From: Candidatus Auribacterota bacterium
GTDB lineage: Bacteria > Auribacterota > JAFGBW01 > JAFGJP01
Direction: 5' to 3'
NCBI GenBank assembly: GCA_023144635.1
Contig: JAGLFH010000030.1
Coordinates: 144,386 to 208,385, forward strand
Length of the DNA: 64,000 bases
Each line of letters begins with the position of its first letter. The first letter of the stretch is position 1. Under the pieces are notes generated by a model, which was not told the DNA's origin, ran no database searches, and saw nothing but the letters and a program-made list of their open reading frames with translations. The position numbers and the translations under genes were made by a program. Below, one piece after another: positions 4,210 through 40,922 of this stretch.

Positions 4210-4254
4210 ATATTATCCGGCCTTTATTGTAAATGGCCGGATAATATGTTTTTT
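4210..4254 (+). terminator. Intrinsic terminator after dnaK
   Basis: A perfect 13-bp stem, ATATTATCCGGCC (4210-4222) with its complement at 4235-4247, encloses a 12-nt loop and is followed by GTTTTTT (4248-4254). It lies only a few bases before the ribosome-binding site of the next gene, so that gene is either read through or has its own start within this short space. Confidence 0.9.
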
Positions 4255-4267
4255 AAAGGAGTTTCCG

Positions 4268-5590
4268 TTGAAGATCAGCAAAATATTTCCTGCCATTATT
4301 GTTTTAGTTATACTCGTTACTTATATTGTCTTTTTTATGCCTAAAATAAAAACTACTGACAAAATCAAAAAAAGTTCAGAACTCGTTTTTGATATTCCTG
4401 AAGACGTATATTTAGAAAAAATAAATTGTCAAAATATTACTCTTGAAAAATACGGGGCAAATACTCCGTGGATGATCACCAGTCCTATAAACTTTCCTGC
4501 TGACCAAGCTATATGTGCTTCAATAGAAAAGACAATTAAAGAGCTTCCGTTTGAACGTGTTTTTAAAAAAGGTGAACTTTCTCAAGAAAAGCTTAAAAGT
4601 TTAAAGCTTCTTAATGTAAGTGATAGAAATATGTTGAATTTTTTGTACAATTCTGGCAAAGAAAAGTTAAGTTATAGTATTGCTGTAGGAGCTGATACAC
4701 CTATCGACAGTTTTTGTTACATCAGATTTTTAAGCAATGATATTGTATATGTAATAGGGCGCGGAATAAAAGGCCTTCTATATAATCCCATAGAAATTTT
4801 TGCTGATAAGGCAATTTTTAAAGATATCAATATTACTGCATGTAAAAGTTTTAAGATATCAGGTGAAAAAGTAAATCTAACCATTGCGCGTGAAGGTGAA
4901 AAAGAACATTTAATATTAAAAAATCCGTATATTGCTTTTATAAATGCAGATTCTTTAGAAAGATTATTTAAAAATATTGAAGATATCAGAATAGAAAGAT
5001 TTCTTGAAATTCCTGTTAAGTCTGAATTTATAAACAAGATAGTCTGGGATAACAATAGCAGTGTTACAGAACTTATCTTAACAGAATCTGAAGAGAATAG
5101 AGAGACTATTGCTCGTTTTAAAGGGGATGATAATTATTTTTATATTCCATCTAAAAAAGTGCGTAAAATTATTAAGGAAGATATCTATAAAGATCTATTA
5201 TCTAGGAAAATAACACCTTTTGAAGTTGAAGAGGTGAAAAATATAATAATAAAAGTTAATGGCGAGATGATCTTCCTTAAAAATGAAGACGTTTGGAAAT
5301 ATAAAATGGATGAAGGCGAAAAAAAGACTTCATATGGGGCTTTAATGCTTGCAAAAAATATAATAAATATAAAAATTAACGAATATAAAAATAAGGAAGA
5401 TCTTGAACCATTAGAACAATATATTGATATAATTTTTGTTTTTTCAAAGAACAAAAAATATGATGTTAGTATAAATAAAGGAAAGAGCGGAAATATTTAT
5501 TCAACAATGGATGATAAGCTTTATGGAGTAATTGAAGATATAGATATAGAATTTCTTGAAAATATGATAGATCTTATACGCGTTGATTAA
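4268..5590 (+). CDS. Membrane-anchored DUF4340-like protein
   Basis: A 440-residue protein with one N-terminal hydrophobic segment (about residues 6-26) and a large, probably periplasmic, remainder. The repeated pattern of a short beta strand followed by W-K/W-M segments and the overall shape resemble DUF4340 proteins, which have no firmly known function and are often found near ABC-type gliding/export systems; no such genes are adjacent here. The TTG at 4268 is chosen because AAAGGAG lies just upstream and the hydrophobic anchor immediately follows. It lies 13 bases before the FmdB-type gene. Function is not claimed. Confidence 0.6.
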   Translation: MKISKIFPAIIVLVILVTYIVFFMPKIKTTDKIKKSSELVFDIPEDVYLEKINCQNITLEKYGANTPWMITSPINFPADQAICASIEKTIKELPFERVFKKGELSQEKLKSLKLLNVSDRNMLNFLYNSGKEKLSYSIAVGADTPIDSFCYIRFLSNDIVYVIGRGIKGLLYNPIEIFADKAIFKDINITACKSFKISGEKVNLTIAREGEKEHLILKNPYIAFINADSLERLFKNIEDIRIERFLEIPVKSEFINKIVWDNNSSVTELILTESEENRETIARFKGDDNYFYIPSKKVRKIIKEDIYKDLLSRKITPFEVEEVKNIIIKVNGEMIFLKNEDVWKYKMDEGEKKTSYGALMLAKNIINIKINEYKNKEDLEPLEQYIDIIFVFSKNKKYDVSINKGKSGNIYSTMDDKLYGVIEDIDIEFLENMIDLIRVD

Positions 5591-5603
5591 ATGGAGTTAA
5601 AGT

Positions 5604-5909
5604 ATGCCTACTTATGAATATGAATGTTTAAAATGTGGTGAAATATTTGAACTTTTTCAGAGCATTAAGGCTGAAGCGTTAAAAAAACATGCCAGTTGCG
5701 GCGGAAAAGTAAAAAGACTTATTAGTGGTGGAGCAGGTATTATCTTTAAGGGAAGTGGATTTTATGAAACAGATTATAGAAGAAAAACTAAACCTCCAAC
5801 AGCTACTAAACAGACAGAAAGTAAAAGTCCTTCAAAATCTGAGGGTTTAAAAAAAGAATTTAAGCCTTCAGGGGATAACAAAAAAGCAAAACCTGCGAAT
5901 TCTAAATAG
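5604..5909 (+). CDS. FmdB-type zinc-ribbon protein
   Basis: A 101-residue protein that opens with the FmdB family signature PTYEYECLKCGEIFE (C8-x2-C11). The usual second CxxC knuckle is reduced to H-x2-C (KHASCGGK), so zinc might be bound by three Cys and one His. Residues from about 62 are a Lys/Ser/Pro-rich low-complexity tail. FmdB-like proteins are putative regulatory proteins of uncertain role. It forms a pair with the preceding gene (13-base gap) and ends before a structured intergenic region. Confidence 0.8.
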   Translation: MPTYEYECLKCGEIFELFQSIKAEALKKHASCGGKVKRLISGGAGIIFKGSGFYETDYRRKTKPPTATKQTESKSPSKSEGLKKEFKPSGDNKKAKPANSK

Positions 5910-6005
5910 ATGATTTGTAATACATAATGTAAGTTTCCTCACCATAATGTGTAAAGGCTGAGGCAAGGCAAAGTATCGCTTTTTTTAAAAACCTTTTGCT
6001 CATTT

Positions 6006-6055
6006 TTTCTTAAAAATTGTTTTCTAAGCAATTTTTAAGAAACGCAAGTGTTGCG
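6006..6055 (+). other. Two adjacent hairpin-forming inverted repeats
   Basis: TTTCTTAAAAATTG (6006-6019) is perfectly complementary to 6029-6042 (9-nt loop), and directly behind it CGCAA (6043-6047) pairs with TTGCG (6051-6055). They lie between the fmdB-type gene and the Rex palindrome. The first stem followed by no clear T-run downstream is at best a weak terminator; on the opposite strand it is also not followed by T. Possibly a transcription boundary. Confidence 0.45.
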
Positions 6056-6080
6056 TAACGTATTGATAACATGATAATTA

Positions 6081-6134
6081 ACAAAAAAGTCAACAGTAAT
6101 GTGAAATATTTCACATTACTGTTGACTTTTTTGT
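6081..6134. promoter_or_regulatory. 54-bp perfect palindrome centred on a Rex operator
   Basis: Bases 6081-6107 are the exact reverse complement of 6108-6134, with no loop. The centre, TGTGAAATATTTCACA (6100-6115), matches the established Rex half-site arrangement TGTGAA-N4-TTCACA. The next gene encodes Rex, so autoregulation by NADH/NAD+ ratio is expected, and the co-directional hydrogenase genes are probably controlled with it. The right arm ends in TTGACT, a consensus-like -35 box, so a bound repressor would cover the promoter. The arms extending far beyond the 16-bp core are unusual for a simple operator. Confidence 0.85.
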
Positions 6135-6149
6135 TTTTAATGATATATT
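6122..6149 (+). promoter_or_regulatory. Putative sigma-70 promoter of the rex/hydrogenase run
   Basis: TTGACT (6122-6127) and TATATT (6144-6149) are separated by 16 bases, close to the sigma-70 consensus. The -35 box lies in the right arm of the Rex palindrome. A start about seven bases downstream of the -10 box would leave a ~25-nt leader before the ATG at 6183. Confidence 0.65.
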
Positions 6150-6182
6150 TTTATTGTTTATGTGAATACAAGGAACAATAAA

Positions 6183-6809
6183 ATGAAATCAGCAAAACAG
6201 ATAATTTTAAGATTATTTCAATATCGAGAATTTTTAATGCGAGCTAAAAGTATCGGAATAAAAAATGTTTATTCTGATACTTTAGCAGAAGCTTTAGGTT
6301 CTACTGCAACACAAGTTCGAAAGGATTTTTCATTGTTTGGAATCACTGGCAATAAGCGTGCAGGTTATAAGCTAGATGATTTATTAAGTCAATTAAGCGA
6401 GTTATTGGGAAAAAATCAAAAACAAAAAATAATTATTGCCGGAGCTGGAAATTTAGGAAAAGCATTAATGCAGTATGATGGATTTAAAAAAGAGGGTATA
6501 GAAATTGTTGCGCTTTTTGACAATGATCCTGTGAAGGTAAATATAGAGAGCAGTCCTCCAATACTTCCAATTGAAAGACTGTTTGAATTTATTGGAAAGA
6601 ATAAAATCAATTTAGGAGTTATAGCTGTTCCCTATTTTGCAGCACAACAAATGCTGGATTTAATGATTTTAGCAGGAATTAAAGGTGTTTTGAATTTTGC
6701 ACCAATTTCTTTAAAGTCACCTAAAGATTTTTTTATTAATGATATTAATTTACGTCTTGAACTTGAAACTGTAGCCTATTTTATTAAGCCGCTAAAACAA
6801 GAAGATTAA
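6183..6809 (+). CDS. rex: Redox-sensing transcriptional repressor Rex
   Basis: Dimeric DNA-binding repressor that releases DNA when NADH is high. The 208-residue protein has the N-terminal winged helix with the family-specific recognition stretch ATQVRKDFSLFG and a C-terminal NAD(H)-binding Rossmann fold with IIIAGAGNLGKAL. The ATG at 6183 is chosen because AAGGAA lies eight bases upstream; an in-frame GTG at 6162 would lie almost at the predicted transcription start and has no ribosome-binding site. The Rex-type operator directly upstream and the hydrogenase genes downstream agree with the known role of Rex in controlling fermentative and hydrogen metabolism. Confidence 0.92.
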   Translation: MKSAKQIILRLFQYREFLMRAKSIGIKNVYSDTLAEALGSTATQVRKDFSLFGITGNKRAGYKLDDLLSQLSELLGKNQKQKIIIAGAGNLGKALMQYDGFKKEGIEIVALFDNDPVKVNIESSPPILPIERLFEFIGKNKINLGVIAVPYFAAQQMLDLMILAGIKGVLNFAPISLKSPKDFFINDINLRLELETVAYFIKPLKQED

Positions 6810-6824
6810 AAAAAGAGAAAAAAT

Positions 6825-8657
6825 ATGAAACCAATAAAATTGAAAATAAAAATAATGTTATCTATTTTATATGTAATTATTTTTCTTGGTTTATGTATGT
6901 CTGTTTTTGGATATTTTGTTTTAAAAAAATACGTTTACGAAAGTGCTCAAGAAAAAGTTGTCAAAGATTTGGAAATTGTTAGAGATGCTTATGACCAGAA
7001 GTTAAAAGAAATGAAATTAGCTTTCAATATGATTAATGAAGCTAATGATCTGGGTTTAATGCGTGAATATTTACATCTTGATTATTTGTATTGGGTGCCG
7101 ATATCTAAAATAGATGAGGAATCAAGCGAGATCATTAAAAAAGTTTTAAATTCAGCTCAGGATACCGGTGGTACTCGAATAATTTCAAAAAAACAAATAT
7201 CACGCTTGTTTGCGGGTATAGAAGGTATAAAAATCAAACCAACACCTAAAGCCTGCCCTACTGATAAAAAACTATTAGAAAGTATAATGTCTATAGAATA
7301 TGCAAAACCTTACTTAAATGCTAAAGGTAAAATAGAAAAAATATTAGTTGGCGGTAAGCTTATAAATAAAAACTTCCAGTTTATTGATAATATTGTAAAT
7401 ACTGTATTTGAAAATAGACTTTATGAAGGTAAACCTGTTGGAACAATTACTCTTTTCCAAAATGATGTACGAATAGCAACAAATGTATTAGATAAAAATG
7501 GTAAAAGAGCCATTGGAACACGTGTTTCAGAAGTTGTCTATAAAAGAATATTTGAACAAAAAGAAAAGTGGCTGGATAGAGCTTTTGTTGTTACTGATTG
7601 GTATGTTACAGCTTATGAACCCATTAAAAATATAAATGGAAATGTGATTGGTATTCTTTATGTAGGAATATTAGAAAAACCTTTTGTTGAATTTCAGAAA
7701 AACTTATTTATTGCATTATTAATAATAATTTTTTCAGGATGTATTATATCTATTTTTTTCTCAATGTTTATTTCAAAATCCATAGCTGTACCACTTACTA
7801 AGGTTATAAAAAGTACAAATCAGATTTCTAATGGTAATTTAGGAATAAAAATAGAATCAGAAACTGACATTTATGAACTTAATGAATTGATATCTGCTGT
7901 TAATGATATGTCAATGACATTGATACATAGAGAGGAAAGTTTAGATATTTCAAACAAAAAATTAGAGGTATTAAATAAGAGTTATTTAGATTTAATCGGT
8001 TTCGTTTCTCATGAATTAAAAGGTATTTTATCTTCTATTATTTTAAATGTTTATTTAATTAGAAAAAGAATACTTGGAAACATAAGCGAAAAGCAAGAAA
8101 AAACGCTTAACTCTATTGCTCGTAATTTAGATTATTTGGCTGTCACTGTTAAGAATTTTTTAAACTTAAGCCGGATTGAAAAGAATGAAATTGAAATCAA
8201 TAAAAGTCAAATACTTTTAAAAGAGCATATTTTTGATGTTGCTATTGAAGCTTTTGAGCAGCCGTTAAAGGATAAGGAAATGTACTTGCAAAATAATATA
8301 GCAAAAGATTTATCTGTTAATGCGGATTCTGCTTTGATGCAAATAGTTGCAAATAACTTGATTAGCAATGCTATAAAATATGGTAAACCTCGTGGGGAAA
8401 TAGTATTGAAATCAAGTGAAAAAGACGATGTCTTGGAAATAGAAGTTTATAATGACGGAGAAACTATTTGTGACGTTGATATTGAAAAATTGTTTAAAAA
8501 GTTTTCTCGAATTGTTTATAGGGGTATGGAAAGTATAAAAGGCTCTGGTATAGGGCTGTATATTACTAAAGAAATTATCAAGCTTCATGGTGGAACAATT
8601 AAAGTAGAGCCTAGTAAAAAAGGCAATTCTTTCATATTTAGTATTGATAAAGATTAA
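6825..8657 (+). CDS. Sensor histidine kinase with extracytoplasmic Cache domain and HAMP
   Basis: A 610-residue membrane kinase. It has a transmembrane helix at about 11-33, a periplasmic Cache-type sensor (about 34-292; GTITLFQNDVRIATN and WYVTAYEPIKN-NGNVIGILYVG are typical of the Cache_3-Cache_2 class), a second transmembrane helix (about 294-316) and HAMP (about 317-370). A HisKA domain with H396 in FVSHELKG follows, then an HATPase domain with the N box NNLISNAIKYG and GSGIGLYITKEI. It starts 15 bases after rex and is followed by the receiver-HydC fusion, so it is the natural candidate for phosphorylating the two receivers in this locus. Such Cache domains often bind small organic ligands; the ligand here is unknown. 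Confidence 0.9.
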   Translation: MKPIKLKIKIMLSILYVIIFLGLCMSVFGYFVLKKYVYESAQEKVVKDLEIVRDAYDQKLKEMKLAFNMINEANDLGLMREYLHLDYLYWVPISKIDEESSEIIKKVLNSAQDTGGTRIISKKQISRLFAGIEGIKIKPTPKACPTDKKLLESIMSIEYAKPYLNAKGKIEKILVGGKLINKNFQFIDNIVNTVFENRLYEGKPVGTITLFQNDVRIATNVLDKNGKRAIGTRVSEVVYKRIFEQKEKWLDRAFVVTDWYVTAYEPIKNINGNVIGILYVGILEKPFVEFQKNLFIALLIIIFSGCIISIFFSMFISKSIAVPLTKVIKSTNQISNGNLGIKIESETDIYELNELISAVNDMSMTLIHREESLDISNKKLEVLNKSYLDLIGFVSHELKGILSSIILNVYLIRKRILGNISEKQEKTLNSIARNLDYLAVTVKNFLNLSRIEKNEIEINKSQILLKEHIFDVAIEAFEQPLKDKEMYLQNNIAKDLSVNADSALMQIVANNLISNAIKYGKPRGEIVLKSSEKDDVLEIEVYNDGETICDVDIEKLFKKFSRIVYRGMESIKGSGIGLYITKEIIKLHGGTIKVEPSKKGNSFIFSIDKD

Positions 8658-8683: not shown

Positions 8684-9577
8684 ATGAAGTATTTAATACT
8701 GCTAATCGATGATGATTCGGATTTTGTAGAAGCTACTAGGTTGTTGTTAGAAGCTAATGATTATAAAGTAATTACTGCAAAAAATGGACAGGAAGGCTTC
8801 CAAAAAGTAAAAAAAGAGTCACCGAACTTAATTATATTAGATATGATGATGACTTATAAGACTGAAGGTGCCGAAACAGCAAAAGCTATTACAGCAGATG
8901 CGTCAACTAAAGATATTCCCTTAATAATGATAACAGGAGCTAGAAAAGAATTTTCTTTTCCTTTTGAGCTTAAAGCTAATCAGCCAGGATTGCCTGTTAA
9001 AGTTATCTTAGAAAAACCTGTAGACCCTGAGCATTTACTTAAAACAGTCGCTTTATATATAGCAAAAAGGGGAGATGAACCTGTAAAAAAGCAGGTAGAA
9101 GTAAAAAATTTAATCAATAAATGGCAGGATAAAGAAGGTAATTTAATTATGATATTGCATGAGCTTCAGAATTATTATGGTTATATACCTCGAGATGTTG
9201 CTTTTAATCTAACAAGAGATTTAGGCATTCCTTTAGCTAGAATTTATGAAGTAATTTCCTTTTATCACTATTTTCAGCTTGAGCCTCCGGGCAAGCATAT
9301 TATTTCTGTTTGTATGGGGACAGCCTGTTATTTAAAGGGGGCTACTCAATTATTTAAAGAGTTAAAAGATATTCTGAATATTGAAGAGGGAGAAATAACA
9401 AAAGATGGCTTATTTCAATTAAAGGGAGTTAGATGTATTGGCTGTTGTGGGCTTGCTCCTGTAATTATGATAGATGAAAAAGTTTATGGCAATTTAAAAG
9501 CAGGAGATTTAATGGATATTATTTCTCAATATAGCAATAAGTCTGAAAAGAGTGTTAAAGAAGGAGTAGTAGTATGA
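8684..9577 (+). CDS. Response-regulator receiver fused to NuoE/HydC-like [2Fe-2S] hydrogenase subunit
   Basis: A 297-residue fusion. Residues 1-130 are a complete receiver: acidic pocket D9-D11, phosphoacceptor D53 (LIILD), T84 and K111 (EKP). Residues about 136-285 are a NuoE/HydC/HndA-type thioredoxin-like [2Fe-2S] subunit with the ligand pattern C210-x4-C215 (CMGTAC) and C251-x3-C255 (CIGCC), plus the usual N-terminal helical part (LHELQNYYGYIPRDVA). NuoE-like subunits feed electrons to or from the flavoprotein in NADH-linked and electron-bifurcating hydrogenases. A receiver domain is not a normal part of this family. The same frame is open through both domains, with no stop or shift. The next gene overlaps its stop by 4 bases (ATGA), which argues for tightly coupled translation. 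Confidence 0.93.
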   Translation: MKYLILLIDDDSDFVEATRLLLEANDYKVITAKNGQEGFQKVKKESPNLIILDMMMTYKTEGAETAKAITADASTKDIPLIMITGARKEFSFPFELKANQPGLPVKVILEKPVDPEHLLKTVALYIAKRGDEPVKKQVEVKNLINKWQDKEGNLIMILHELQNYYGYIPRDVAFNLTRDLGIPLARIYEVISFYHYFQLEPPGKHIISVCMGTACYLKGATQLFKELKDILNIEEGEITKDGLFQLKGVRCIGCCGLAPVIMIDEKVYGNLKAGDLMDIISQYSNKSEKSVKEGVVV

Positions 9578-9924
9578 GCAAGTTAACATTAGATAGCTTT
9601 AAGAATAAGTCAAAAAAAGCAAAAAAAAATAATACAAACTTTATAAAAGTTGGTTTAAGTACCTGTGGCATTGCGGCGGGTGCAGATACGGTGTTTAATG
9701 TTTTAAAAGAAGAGCTTAAAAAAAAGGAAATAAATGTTCCTGTTCTTAGATGTGGTTGTGCAGGGATGTGTTATGCAGAACCTCTAGTTGAAGTTAAGAT
9801 CGAAGGTATGCCGTGGATCATATATGGCAAAGTAAATGAAGATGTTGCATTAAAAATAATAAGAAAGCATGTTGCAAGAAAACAAGTTATCAATGATTAT
9901 ATCTTTTCAATAAAGGACGAATAA
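9574..9924 (+). CDS. Thioredoxin-like [2Fe-2S] ferredoxin subunit (HndB-like)
   Basis: A 116-residue protein with a basic N-terminus and a thioredoxin-like ferredoxin domain: STCGIAAGA near residue 30 and [12 protein letters not shown] in the middle provide the Cys ligands expected of this family. In NADP-reducing hydrogenases of the HndABCD type this is the separate small subunit; in HydB-type flavoproteins the same domain is fused to the N-terminus. Here it overlaps the upstream receiver-HydC gene by 4 bases and ends 1 base before the flavoprotein start, so it is almost certainly a stoichiometric component of the complex. Confidence 0.85.
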
Positions 9925-9925
9925 A

Positions 9926-11665
9926 ATGCAGAACCAAAAGAAAATTATATTAGTTAAAGATACAAATATGGATAAAGAAACATCTAGCATGATTGATAAA
10001 TTCTTGTTTGGCCTTCGTGAAAGAGGATTGAGTGAGGATGTCAAAGTAATACGTGCTGCTGACCTTAATATTTATAATAAAGGTGTAGTCGTTAAAATTT
10101 GGCCGGAAAATATTACTTATGCAAATGTAAAAAAAGATGATATTGATTTGATTATTCATAGAACTGTCGAGAATGGCAAAAATATTGATGAACTTCTTGT
10201 AAGTGAAACAAATAAACAGCTGCGTATTGTATTAAGAAACTGTGGAATTATTGACCCTGAAAAGATAGATGATTATTTGGATAATGAAGGCTATTGTGCT
10301 TTGGCAAAAGTTCTTTCTGAATATAGTCCTGATGAGGTTATTGAACAGATGAAAATTAGTGGACTTAGAGGTAGAGGCGGCGGCGGATTTCCAACATGGA
10401 TGAAATGGAATTTTGCCAAAGCACAAAAAGAGGAAACAAAATATATTATATGTAATGCTGACGAAGGTGATCCGGGTGCTTATATGGATCGTAGCGTTTT
10501 GGAAGGAGATCCGCATTCTGTCATCGAGGGAATGATAATTGCCGGATATACTGTTGGAGCCCAAAAAGGTTATTTATATATTAGAGCAGAATATCCTTTA
10601 GCTATTAAAAGAATAACTTTAGCGATAAATCAGGCAAGAGAGAAGGGGCTTTTAGGTGATAATATATTAGGTACAGATTTTTCTTTTGATCTAGATGTAC
10701 GCTTGGGTGCAGGAGCTTTTGTTTGTGGAGAAGAAACAGCCTTGATCGCTTCTATAGAAGGGAAAAGAGGATGTCCCTCTCCAAGGCCACCTTATCCATC
10801 TGTAAACGGATTATGGGGAAAACCTACTATTATTAATAATGTAGAGACCTTAGCCAATATTGCTCCTATTTTGCATAATGGTGGTGATTGGTTTGCATCA
10901 ATTGGCACAGAGAAATCCAAAGGAACAAAAGTGTTTGCATTAACGGGGAAAGTTAATAATTCAAGCTTAATTGAAGTTCCTATGGGGACTACGCTAAGAG
11001 ATATTGTTTATAACATAGGCGGCGGTGTTTTAAATAACAAAAAAATAAAAGCTGTTCAAACCGGAGGCCCTTCCGGAGGAGTTATTCCGGAGAATCTTTT
11101 AGATACATCAATTGATTATGAAAATCTGCAGAGGCTTGGTTCCATAATGGGGTCTGGAGGTATGATAGTTATGGACGAAGACGATTGTATGGTAGATATA
11201 GCAAAGTTCTACCTTCAATTTTGTGTAGATGAATCTTGTGGTAAATGTGCGCCTTGCCGAATTGGTGGAAAGCAGATGCTTAATATTTTGAGTAATATTT
11301 CTGAAGGTAAAGGAGATTTGGAAGATATTTCCAGTTTAAAAAGAATATCCCAAGCATTACAAAAAGCATCACTCTGTGGTCTGGGGCAGACAGCACCGAA
11401 CCCCGTTGTTTCTACTTTAAAACATTTTGAAGAGGAATATATTGAACATATAAATGAAAAAATATGTAGGGCAAAAAAATGTTCATTACTTTCAATTTAT
11501 GAAATTATTGAGGAGAAATGTAAACGATGTTCACTTTGTCAGAGAAGTTGTCCTGTTGAGGCAATAAATGGAAATAGAGAAGTTGGTTTTACTATTGATC
11601 AGGAAAAGTGTATTAAATGTGGAAAATGTTTTGAAGTGTGTAAATTTGAAGCAGTTTCTCTATAA
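9926..11665 (+). CDS. NuoF/HydB-like NAD(P)H- and FMN-binding hydrogenase subunit
   Basis: A 579-residue flavoprotein subunit of a multimeric [FeFe] hydrogenase. Domains in order: a thioredoxin-like N-terminal region (about 1-95) that has lost its Cys residues; the NuoF core with the FMN/NADH motifs [14 protein letters not shown] and [14 protein letters not shown], then [13 protein letters not shown]; an SLBB-like part; the [4Fe-4S] N3-type site [13 protein letters not shown] with a fourth Cys in [12 protein letters not shown]; and a C-terminal two-cluster ferredoxin ([11 protein letters not shown] and [11 protein letters not shown]). This layout is typical of HydB/HndC of electron-bifurcating or NADP-reducing hydrogenases. 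HydA follows 40 bases downstream with no terminator between. Confidence 0.92.
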
Positions 11666-11705: not shown

Positions 11706-13451
11706 ATGGGAAAAGCATATATTAACAAAATAGAAGTTGATTTTAACGATGGAGATACTATTCTCGAGACCGCTTCTAGTGTACAGATAAAAATTCCTAC
11801 ATTATGTAAGCATCCCGATCTGTCCCCGACAGGAGGCTGCGGTATTTGTGTTGTTAAAATTGAAGGTACAAATAAGATGCTTCGTGCCTGTTGTACGAAA
11901 ATTGAAGACGGAATGAAAATAATAACCCACGACCCAGAAATTGTTGAGATAAGAAGAACAGTAATCGAACTTATCTTATCTGATCATCCTAACGACTGTT
12001 TGATATGTGGACGGAATAATAATTGTGAGTTACAAACCATTGTTGCAGATTTTGGAATTAGAGAAGAATCTTTTGAGAAAATAGTAAAAGAAATACCGCA
12101 AGACAAATCAACCGGAACCATTAAACTGGAACCTTCAAAATGTATTAAATGTGGAAGATGTATTGAAGTTTGCCAGGATATTCAAAATGTTTGGGCTCTT
12201 TCGTTTTTAGAAAGAGGTATCAATACGCGTATGGCACCTGCAGGGGATATACAGTTAAAAGATTCTCCCTGTGTTAGATGTGGACAATGTTCCGCTCATT
12301 GCCCAACAGGAGCAATTTTTGAACATGATCATACAAGAGAAGTTTGGGCGGAACTGCAGAATCCGGATATGCATTGTATTGTTCAAATAGCTCCGTCGGT
12401 AAGAGTTGCTGTTGGGGAAGGTTTCGGCTATGCTCCTGGAGAGAATCTGACTAATAAACTATATGCTGCATTAAGACGTTTAGGTTTTAATACGGTTTTT
12501 GATACAAATTTTTCTGCAGATGTAACTATCATGGAAGAAGCTAGCGAATTTGTTGAAAGATTTGTTCATAAAAAAGGTGTTTTGCCTCTAATAACTACAT
12601 GTTGTCCTGCTTGGGTGGATTTCATGGAAAAATTTCATACTGATATTATACCTCATTTTTCTTCTGCAAAATCTCCTCAGGAAATAATGGGGACGTTATG
12701 TAAGACATATTATGCTGAAAAGAAAGGTATTGATCCAAGTAAAATACGAGTTATATCAATTATGCCTTGTACCGCTAAAAAATATGAAATCTCCAGATCT
12801 AATGAAATGTTTGCATCAGGTTATCAGAGTACAGACTTTGTTTTGACTACGAGAGAATTGATTAGAATGATAAAACAAGCAGGGATTGATTTTAATTTTA
12901 TTGAAGGCGAAGAACCTGATAATTTAATGGGTGATTATTCCGGTGCAGGAACTATTTTTGGTGTAACTGGCGGAGTCATGGAGGCAGCTCTAAGAACAGC
13001 ACATCATTTTATTACAGGAAATAAGTTAGAAAAAGTTGAATTTGAAAATGTTCGCGGACTTGATGGTGTAAAAGAAACATCTGTTGAAATTAGCGGAAAT
13101 ATTTTAAAAATAGTTGTTGCGCATGGTCTTGGTAATGTAGAATATGTGTTGAATAAAGTCAAGGAAGCAAAAGATAAAGGCAAAGAGATTCCATATCATT
13201 TTATTGAGGTTATGGCATGTTCTGGTGGCTGTATAGGCGGTGGAGGTCAACCCTATGGTGTTACGGATGAGATTAGAAAAGCACGTGCAAAAGGTCTATA
13301 TTCTGATGATAAAAACAGTGAAGTAAGGTGTAGCCATGAAAATCCATTTATTAAACAACTATACAAAGAGTTTTTAGGTGAACCTTTAAGTGAAAAAGCA
13401 CATCATTTGTTACATACAAAATATGTACCGAGGCCTGAATATAAAAAGTAG
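11706..13451 (+). CDS. hydA: [FeFe] hydrogenase catalytic subunit HydA (multi-subunit type)
   Basis: Catalyses reversible proton reduction to H2 at the H-cluster. The 581-residue protein has an N-terminal [2Fe-2S] ferredoxin domain (C34, C45, C48, C62/C63 region), a His-ligated cluster region (HPNDCLICGRNNNCELQ, about 94-110), a double [4Fe-4S] ferredoxin (CIKCGRCIEVC about 146-156 and CVRCGQCSAHC about 189-199) and the H-domain. H-cluster motifs are L1 TTCCPAW with C299/C300, L2 MPCTAKK with C355 and L3 MACSGGC with C505/C509. L1 has T where S is usual and L3 has S506 where P is usual. The gene lies after HydC- and HydB-like subunits and before the maturases. Confidence 0.95.
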   Translation: MGKAYINKIEVDFNDGDTILETASSVQIKIPTLCKHPDLSPTGGCGICVVKIEGTNKMLRACCTKIEDGMKIITHDPEIVEIRRTVIELILSDHPNDCLICGRNNNCELQTIVADFGIREESFEKIVKEIPQDKSTGTIKLEPSKCIKCGRCIEVCQDIQNVWALSFLERGINTRMAPAGDIQLKDSPCVRCGQCSAHCPTGAIFEHDHTREVWAELQNPDMHCIVQIAPSVRVAVGEGFGYAPGENLTNKLYAALRRLGFNTVFDTNFSADVTIMEEASEFVERFVHKKGVLPLITTCCPAWVDFMEKFHTDIIPHFSSAKSPQEIMGTLCKTYYAEKKGIDPSKIRVISIMPCTAKKYEISRSNEMFASGYQSTDFVLTTRELIRMIKQAGIDFNFIEGEEPDNLMGDYSGAGTIFGVTGGVMEAALRTAHHFITGNKLEKVEFENVRGLDGVKETSVEISGNILKIVVAHGLGNVEYVLNKVKEAKDKGKEIPYHFIEVMACSGGCIGGGGQPYGVTDEIRKARAKGLYSDDKNSEVRCSHENPFIKQLYKEFLGEPLSEKAHHLLHTKYVPRPEYKK

Positions 13452-39201: not shown

Positions 39202-40922
39202 TTTTTGTCAGGATTTTTATTTGAGATCAAATATACAGGATAAAGAGATGGAGATCCTTCCTTCAGAACAAAAGGTATGTGGATTCCTTCTTGTATTAAA
39301 TGATTATAATCTTTTTTTCTTATAAGAAAAAAAGACTCTTTATCGTTGCTTTTCATAATATGTTCAAAAGTATCTCTTCCCATCCCCTTATCAGGTGTTC
39401 TAGGTTCAATAAAGCGGTTAAGATAAAAGACAAATTCGTCATTCCAGAATCCGTAAAACCAGAGATCCTTATTTGATACAACACTTTTTATGTCTCTGCA
39501 AAAAGAGCGTATGTTTCTGTTACTGTCTATGATAGGTAATATCATCAAACAACTGTAAAGGAAAAGAAACGTCATTAAACAAAGAGATGTTGATAAATAT
39601 GATGATAAATTCTTTTTTATCATTGCAAATACGGAAAGTATTATAGATATAAAAAACAGAGTGATAGTAAAGGGGAATATTTTATTAGCATGTTGTAATA
39701 TAAGCTTTGCTTTTTGTAGATCACTTGAAGAAAAAAATTTCATTAGAAAAGGATTTTGTATATTAGGATTTAGGCTATAGAAAAGAATGACAGAAAGGGA
39801 AAAGAGCAATACGATAATTAATACAGAAGATATAAAATATGTAAGAGTAAAAGATTTTAAAGGTTTTTTTGAACAGAATGCTTTTGCAATTAAAAATGAT
39901 GCAGCAGGATATATTGGAAGAATGTAATCTCCTCTTTTTACTCCGGCAAGAGTAAATAGTAAAAAAGTCATTACAATATATGAAACGAGTATAAAATCAG
40001 AAACAGTTTTTTTGTCCCTTTTTAAAAGAACCGGCAATAAAGAAATAAAAAAAAGGCTCCAAGGAAAAAAACCGCTAATAAATTGAGGAATATAAAACCA
40101 GAAGGGCTGACGTTTAGAAAATTCCTTTGCTATCGATAACCCTGAAGGGCCTATAAAGCGTCCTAGGTTATCTGATATGATGAATTTATAGAAGAATCGT
40201 CCGTCTGTCTTGATAATGATAGCTGTATACCACGGAAGGATTATCAGGCATAAAACAATTAAACCTTTACCTAAAAAAAAATGTTTCAGATCTTGGTATT
40301 TTTTATTTATCAAAAAATAACTTAAGATGGGCAAAGATGGAAGTATAAATCCTGCCGGACCTTTGCAAAGAACTGCAAATCCTGAGGAAACAAAAAATAA
40401 ATAATAAAAGAGCTTTTTTGTTTTTTGCTTTTCCTCTTGTTGATAGTTAATAAAAAAAACTACCTGAGAAAAACAAAGGACTGCAAAAACCATATCCATA
40501 CGTGATACTTGTGACATCCAGAATACCTTTGGAGAGGTAATAAGTATTGCAGATGCAATAATAGATGTAAAAATTTTGTTTTTATCTTTTTCTAATCTAA
40601 AAAAAAGAACCATAATAAATATCAGGCTTAAAAAAGAAGGAAGTCGACTGGAAAGTTCAGATACAGAGCCTAAAAAGAATGAACAAATCGCAATGAGCCA
40701 AAAGAAGAATGCAGGTTTTTCATTATCTTCAACACCGTTCAAATGAGGAACAACAAAATCATTATGCTCAAGAAATTCTTTTGCTATTTGAGATGATTGC
40801 GTCTCTAGTGAACTCCATAAACCCCTTTGAGATCCAATAATTAAGGAAAGTACAAGCAGTGTGAGCACCGTTAAAAGGGAAATTAAAATGACGTATTTTT
40901 TTGCACTGTCTCGCATGATCAT
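39198..40922 (-). CDS. GT39/ArnT-like membrane glycosyltransferase (second copy)
   Basis: A 574-residue paralogue of the following gene, with the same topology and the same opening (GLWSSLETQSSQIAKEFLEHNDFVVPHLNG, then KPAFFFWLIA and SSRLPSFLS). The loop position usually Asp-Glu reads Leu-Glu, so it may be catalytically altered or a different subfamily. A conserved Asp remains in MSQVSRMDMVFAV. An in-frame second Met two codons in is an alternative start. It is coupled to the radical SAM gene by a 4-base overlap. Confidence 0.8.
   Translation of the reverse strand: MIMRDSAKKYVILISLLTVLTLLVLSLIIGSQRGLWSSLETQSSQIAKEFLEHNDFVVPHLNGVEDNEKPAFFFWLIAICSFFLGSVSELSSRLPSFLSLIFIMVLFFRLEKDKNKIFTSIIASAILITSPKVFWMSQVSRMDMVFAVLCFSQVVFFINYQQEEKQKTKKLFYYLFFVSSGFAVLCKGPAGFILPSLPILSYFLINKKYQDLKHFFLGKGLIVLCLIILPWYTAIIIKTDGRFFYKFIISDNLGRFIGPSGLSIAKEFSKRQPFWFYIPQFISGFFPWSLFFISLLPVLLKRDKKTVSDFILVSYIVMTFLLFTLAGVKRGDYILPIYPAASFLIAKAFCSKKPLKSFTLTYFISSVLIIVLLFSLSVILFYSLNPNIQNPFLMKFFSSSDLQKAKLILQHANKIFPFTITLFFISIILSVFAMIKKNLSSYLSTSLCLMTFLFLYSCLMILPIIDSNRNIRSFCRDIKSVVSNKDLWFYGFWNDEFVFYLNRFIEPRTPDKGMGRDTFEHIMKSNDKESFFLIRKKDYNHLIQEGIHIPFVLKEGSPSLYPVYLISNKNPDKK

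Follow-up and report, generated by a model that had tools for sequence, protein, structure and literature searches.

The locus considered here raises the question of why a perfect palindrome, much longer than the operator at its center, stands in front of a hydrogenase operon. It was found in a 64,000-nucleotide stretch of contig JAGLFH010000030.1 from a Candidatus Auribacterota bacterium (assembly GCA_023144635.1), hereinafter the window. A preliminary description had reported it as a perfect palindrome of 54 bp; it is real and correctly placed but was cut one pair short on each side, giving 56 bp with 28-base arms. If mismatches are tolerated, the arms extend to 37 bases (6071-6144) with 89% complementarity. 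For perfect palindromes whose arms reach 28 bases or more, the expected number in 3.14 Mb of the same base composition is ~8e-10, and with the 8-base operator core taken as given the remaining 20 pairs have p ~7e-12: a chance origin is not plausible. In a sample of ~0.5 Mb of the genome, from which the background frequency was derived, the perfect palindrome next in length has arms of 15 bases; the second-longest in the window itself, with 13-base arms, lies at 39310-39335 (TCTTTTTTTCTTATAAGAAAAAAAGA). The palindrome is single-copy, its sole other match in the genome being itself on the opposite strand. A mobile palindromic repeat of the MITE or REP kind, for which several copies would be expected, was rejected on this count. 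A search of Rfam at the locus retrieved no RNA family, and a search of IMG/VR with the 28-base center of the palindrome recovered no copy.

A predicted Rex operator in front of rex

The palindrome is followed by rex, the first gene of an operon encoded entirely on the plus strand, in which a response regulator follows the hydrogenase (Table 1). Lys49 in the recognition helix of the Thermotoga maritima Rex, which contacts G7 of the operator in the ternary complex (PMC8836258), aligns with Lys47 of the protein encoded here. Upstream, also on the plus strand, are groEL-, grpE- and dnaK-like genes (named from sequence), a DUF4340 gene and fmdB; hence, fmdB and rex are co-directional and there is no divergent gene.

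Table 1. Features of the palindrome and its flanking operons (positions in the window)
Feature	Position	Strand	Remarks
fmdB-type zinc ribbon gene, last of the upstream operon	5604..5909	+	
Perfect palindrome, 56 bp, 28-base arms: predicted Rex operator core and proposed terminator stem	6080..6135		
Left arm outside the operator	6080..6098		Conservation lacking; proposed to be copied from the right arm as its mirror
Candidate intrinsic terminator for the operon upstream (A-run, hairpin, TTTTTTGTTTTT)	6084..6140	+	
Predicted operator O1, ATGTGAAATATTTCACAT	6099..6116		12/14 specified positions of TTGTGAAnnnnTTCACAA
-35 box of the rex promoter, TTGACT	6122..6127	+	Aligned with TTGACA in relatives
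Extended -10, TGA TATATT, 16-nt spacer	6141..6149	+	Layout shared with L026, L023 and L020
Predicted second Rex operator O2, ATGTGAATACAAGGAACAA	6160..6178		Spans predicted start site and ribosome-binding site
Shine-Dalgarno of rex (AAGGA), within O2	6170..6174	+	Sequence
rex, redox-sensing repressor, 208 aa	6183..6809	+	NF003996, 230.7 bits (cut-off 138); PF06971, PF02629; PDB Rex homologues
Membrane histidine kinase, sCache_3/HAMP/HisKA/HATPase	6825..8657	+	
Response-regulator receiver fused to a NuoE/HoxE-type subunit	8684..9577	+	Equal length in L026
2Fe-2S ferredoxin-like subunit	9574..9924	+	Weak matches only
NuoF/HydB-like flavoprotein subunit	9926..11665	+	
[FeFe]-hydrogenase, NADH-dependent group A6	11706..13451	+	NF040763, 786.5 bits (cut-off 765)

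The central core of the palindrome, TGTGAAATATTTCACA, is at 6100-6115. The site that includes it, O1 (6099-6116), lies 66 bp upstream of rex and agrees with TTGTGAA-N4-TTCACAA at 12/14 positions, the mismatches being confined to the outermost bases. This upholds the first description of the core as fitting a Rex site with rex as the next gene. It likewise fits the consensus of Streptomyces coelicolor, TGTGAACNNNTTCACA, except for its C, and that of Staphylococcus aureus, TTGTGAAWWWWTTCACAA, except for the outermost bases (both as quoted in PMC5355995). The other parts of the 56 bp score no higher than 6/14. Rex-like sites number 417 across the genome as against 383 in a reversed control, and a relaxed pattern yields 86 vs 106; since the genome-wide count barely exceeds the control, the motif alone is weak evidence. 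At this locus, a cognate Rex, the core and the conservation of the site at orthologous rex promoters occur together, features by which Rex autoregulation is recognized. By its sequence and context the core is a Rex operator, with Rex as its predicted ligand.

Rex-like sites also precede the other rex paralogues of the same genome. One of these (L068; G000:C48:57130-57726), with TTGTTAAATAATTCACGG in front of it, adjoins hypA/hypB-like and [NiFe] Hox-type hydrogenase genes; a further Rex-like site, TTGTTAAATATTTCACGA (C48:59535-59552), lies ~60 bp before the NuoE/F-like gene with which the hydrogenase operon begins. The presence of such sites before both the paralogue and its neighboring hydrogenase operon suggests one Rex per hydrogenase. 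The third copy (L069; G000:C36:12287-12847) precedes a phosphoglycerate-dehydrogenase-like gene and has a Rex-like site, GTGTGAATTATTTCACCA, ~45 bp upstream, directly 3' of a TTGACT-TATATT promoter.

The rex promoter and its conserved surroundings

Comparison of the window with the sequences upstream of rex at 14 related loci reveals a conserved layout: the O1 core, the -35 and the extended -10 are retained, mostly together with a second half-site TGTGAA 61-64 bp downstream. The shared block begins with O1 (TGTGAA-N4-TTCACA or close to it), followed by ~5-8 bases and a TTGACA-like -35, and continues with a spacer usually of 16, TGnTATATT, ~10-12 bases and O2 (TGTGAA and then AACAA). The two TGTGAA motifs lie 61-64 bp apart in the window (61 bp), L026, L020, L023, L024, L025, L033, L035, L036 and L019, where L033, L035 and L036, being closely related (their three genomes carry a common genus label), are counted as one. 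L034 has TGTGAT instead, at 64, and a clear O2 is missing in L018, L022 and L037. The chance of TGTGAA at one of the four offsets is at most ~0.004 per locus.

The right arm of the palindrome holds the -35 of this promoter, TTGACT, in keeping with its original assignment: it is followed at a 16-nt spacer by TATATT, with TG before it. The symmetry of the palindrome repeats TTGACT on the minus strand at 6093-6088, and there no -10 is found at 16-18 nt. O2, which lies outside the palindrome, had escaped the first description. The right half of O2 is degenerate and coincides in part with the ribosome-binding site, and the conservation of O2 might therefore be partly translational; in L020 and L025, O2 is located upstream of the ribosome-binding site. 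The separation of 61-64 bp between O1 and O2 corresponds to 5.8-6.1 turns at 10.5 bp per turn, so that Rex dimers on both would face the same side of the DNA and, judging from this spacing, could cooperate.

The closest rex relative, L026, with 82% identity in Rex, comes from a MAG named Candidatus Omnitrophota. The ORFs after its rex match those of the window in order, length and start; the genes upstream of the rex block differ between the two, and the match therefore ends between the upstream gene and O1. Among the ORFs after rex is that of the receiver-NuoE/HoxE fusion (8684-9577), encoded beside the sensor kinase, and an ORF with a similar start is present at L026:10520-11413. Such a fusion might permit control of the hydrogenase enzyme itself by phosphorylation.

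Beyond the 16-bp core the palindrome parts from its relatives: 20/20 flanking pairs are symmetric in the window and 1-9/20 in the relatives (n=14), where chance gives ~5-6. The long arms are absent from all relatives examined, including L026, in which the sequence 5' of O1 has no resemblance to the left arm. The preliminary description would have been contradicted by related loci that kept the hairpin and lost the core; the converse was found, the core being kept and the hairpin not. The conserved -35 lies in the right arm, which makes the left one the likely copy. The long arms thus appear specific to one genome, represented by a single MAG, with their age bracketed at the closest by L026.

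The long arms as a candidate terminator

Folded as RNA, the palindrome forms a 26-bp stem closed by a loop of 4 bases (-36 kcal/mol and z about -12 on both strands), followed by T6-G-T5, with TTTTTTGTTTTT at its 3' side. A stable hairpin directly followed by a U-run, the hallmark of an intrinsic terminator, is hence present, and the early suggestion of a bidirectional transcription stop is plausible. In a simple scan of both strands across 5000-7500 it is the sole terminator-like match, with none other after fmdB; the A+T-richness of the stem counts against such a role. We propose that the long arms most likely act as the stop signal of the dnaK-fmdB operon. Comparable elements are seen at the same place in two relatives: in both L026 (-23.5 kcal/mol, z -5.8) and L023 a hairpin with a T-run stands directly before O1. 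These were recognized by folding and inspection and are unlisted by the simple terminator scanner. With terminator and operator side by side in these loci, the two appear to have merged in the window. Two other hairpins occur nearby: one with 17-bp arms (94%) at 6006-6042, between fmdB and the palindrome, has no T-run on the plus strand, and one with 16-bp arms (94%) at 4210-4247, between dnaK and the DUF4340 gene, is a possible terminator or attenuator.

We therefore consider it probable that the palindrome is an autoregulatory Rex operator whose left arm came to mirror the right one and which, in consequence, terminates the dnaK-fmdB operon as well. The strongest alternative is that the Rex operator alone matters, the added symmetry being due to a recent and neutral template-switch mutation that plays no part in termination. 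Template switching makes perfect hairpins in a single event (PMC8794818), and the restriction of the arms to this genome is in line with such an origin; yet the 26-bp stem and its T-run close a co-directional operon that otherwise has no terminator-like match, and hairpins stand at the same place in L026 and L023. Accordingly, the purely neutral account appears unlikely, if by no means negligible.

Far less probable is an artefact of assembly or library preparation, by which a chimeric inverted copy would have been introduced as the left arm. Short-read MAGs can contain hairpin artefacts, and the arms occur in one genome only; however, the mirror ends after 28 bases, beyond which the contig continues into unrelated dnaK-fmdB sequence, and the genome has other long intergenic hairpins (13/15 of the long perfect hairpins in ~0.5 Mb are intergenic).

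A CRP/FNR-type site (TGTGA-N6-TCACA) in place of a Rex site is scarcely credible, despite the exact match of the core to TGTGANNNNNNTCACA. The site precedes rex in many genomes, and O2 carries AACAA, as in a TTGTTAA-type Rex half-site, rather than TCACA. PF13545, the model searched for a Crp-type HTH, gave no match above the Pfam cut-off and one partial match in an assembly that is ~93% complete; with no such regulator recovered and rex as the neighboring gene, this candidate was rejected. Equally hard to credit is the earlier proposal of divergent promoters or of a composite operator that would hold at least two Rex dimers: the palindrome does exceed a single Rex footprint (23-28 nt in Streptomyces avermitilis; PMC5355995) and has TTGACT on both strands, but it contains no second Rex motif, the second operator lying outside it, and the left-arm TTGACT yields no minus-strand promoter, with fmdB pointing the same way as rex.

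Proposed mechanism and comparison with known systems

Under the preferred reading, an autoregulatory Rex operator that also serves as a terminator, Rex together with NAD+ would occupy O1, directly upstream of the -35, and also O2, over the start site and the ribosome-binding site; the two operators, facing the same side at a distance of about six helical turns, would jointly shut the promoter off. A rise in NADH would cause Rex to leave and the operon to be expressed, whereupon its NADH-dependent [FeFe]-hydrogenase would discharge reductant in the form of H2. Outside the core, the arms would not belong to the operator: the right arm holds the -35 and spacer, and the left arm would be its mirror copy, probably the product of a template switch during replication that the palindromic operator primed. 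The resulting 26-bp RNA hairpin and its U's would end dnaK-fmdB transcription ahead of the rex promoter.

A closer coupling can be envisaged, in which one palindrome is a Rex operator as DNA and an intrinsic terminator as RNA, with Rex bound at O1 as a roadblock that strengthens termination. If so, the NADH/NAD+ ratio would control not only initiation at the hydrogenase operon but also read-through into it from the dnaK-fmdB stress operon, but we regard this as doubtful. Most of what is proposed is the ordinary biology of a Rex autoregulatory operator, the fusion of operator and terminator being the unusual part. The locus offers a concrete architecture for hydrogenase control in uncultured Omnitrophota-like bacteria, with two predicted Rex operators bracketing a TTGACA/extended -10 promoter, and a clear candidate for an operator turned terminator via one inverted-copy mutation. 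If both roles hold, the locus would illustrate how a repressor site can itself give rise to a terminator. Literature searches of partial coverage returned no case of a Rex operator that is also part of a terminator, and no work on Rex in Omnitrophota.

Precedents for the individual elements are available. Rex operators (ROP) and Rex autoregulation in Streptomyces, Staphylococcus, Clostridium and Thermotoga involve the same repressor family and a TTGTGAA/TTCACAA core, and, as here, the site lies at the rex promoter and hydrogenase genes are among the targets (PMC5355995, PMC8457756, PMC8836258): the rex promoter of S. avermitilis is covered by a single ROP, at -39 to -17 (PMC5355995), and in C. 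thermocellum Rex controls hydrogenase operons and rex itself (PMC8457756). Unlike in those systems, two predicted operators bracket the promoter at a fixed 61-64 bp in the lineage considered here and O1 is embedded in a far longer palindrome. With intrinsic (Rho-independent) bidirectional terminators the locus shares the A-run, the perfect GC-containing stem, the short loop, the U-run and the position between co-directional operons; it differs from ordinary ones in that the loop-proximal stem is a predicted repressor operator, while the promoter that follows has its -35 and spacer within the 3' stem arm and T-run. Finally, a perfect reverse-complement copy beside an existing inverted repeat recalls template-switch (quasipalindrome) mutations (PMC8794818, PMC7202029), whereas, in contrast to the known cases, the copy proposed here would extend a protein-binding operator.
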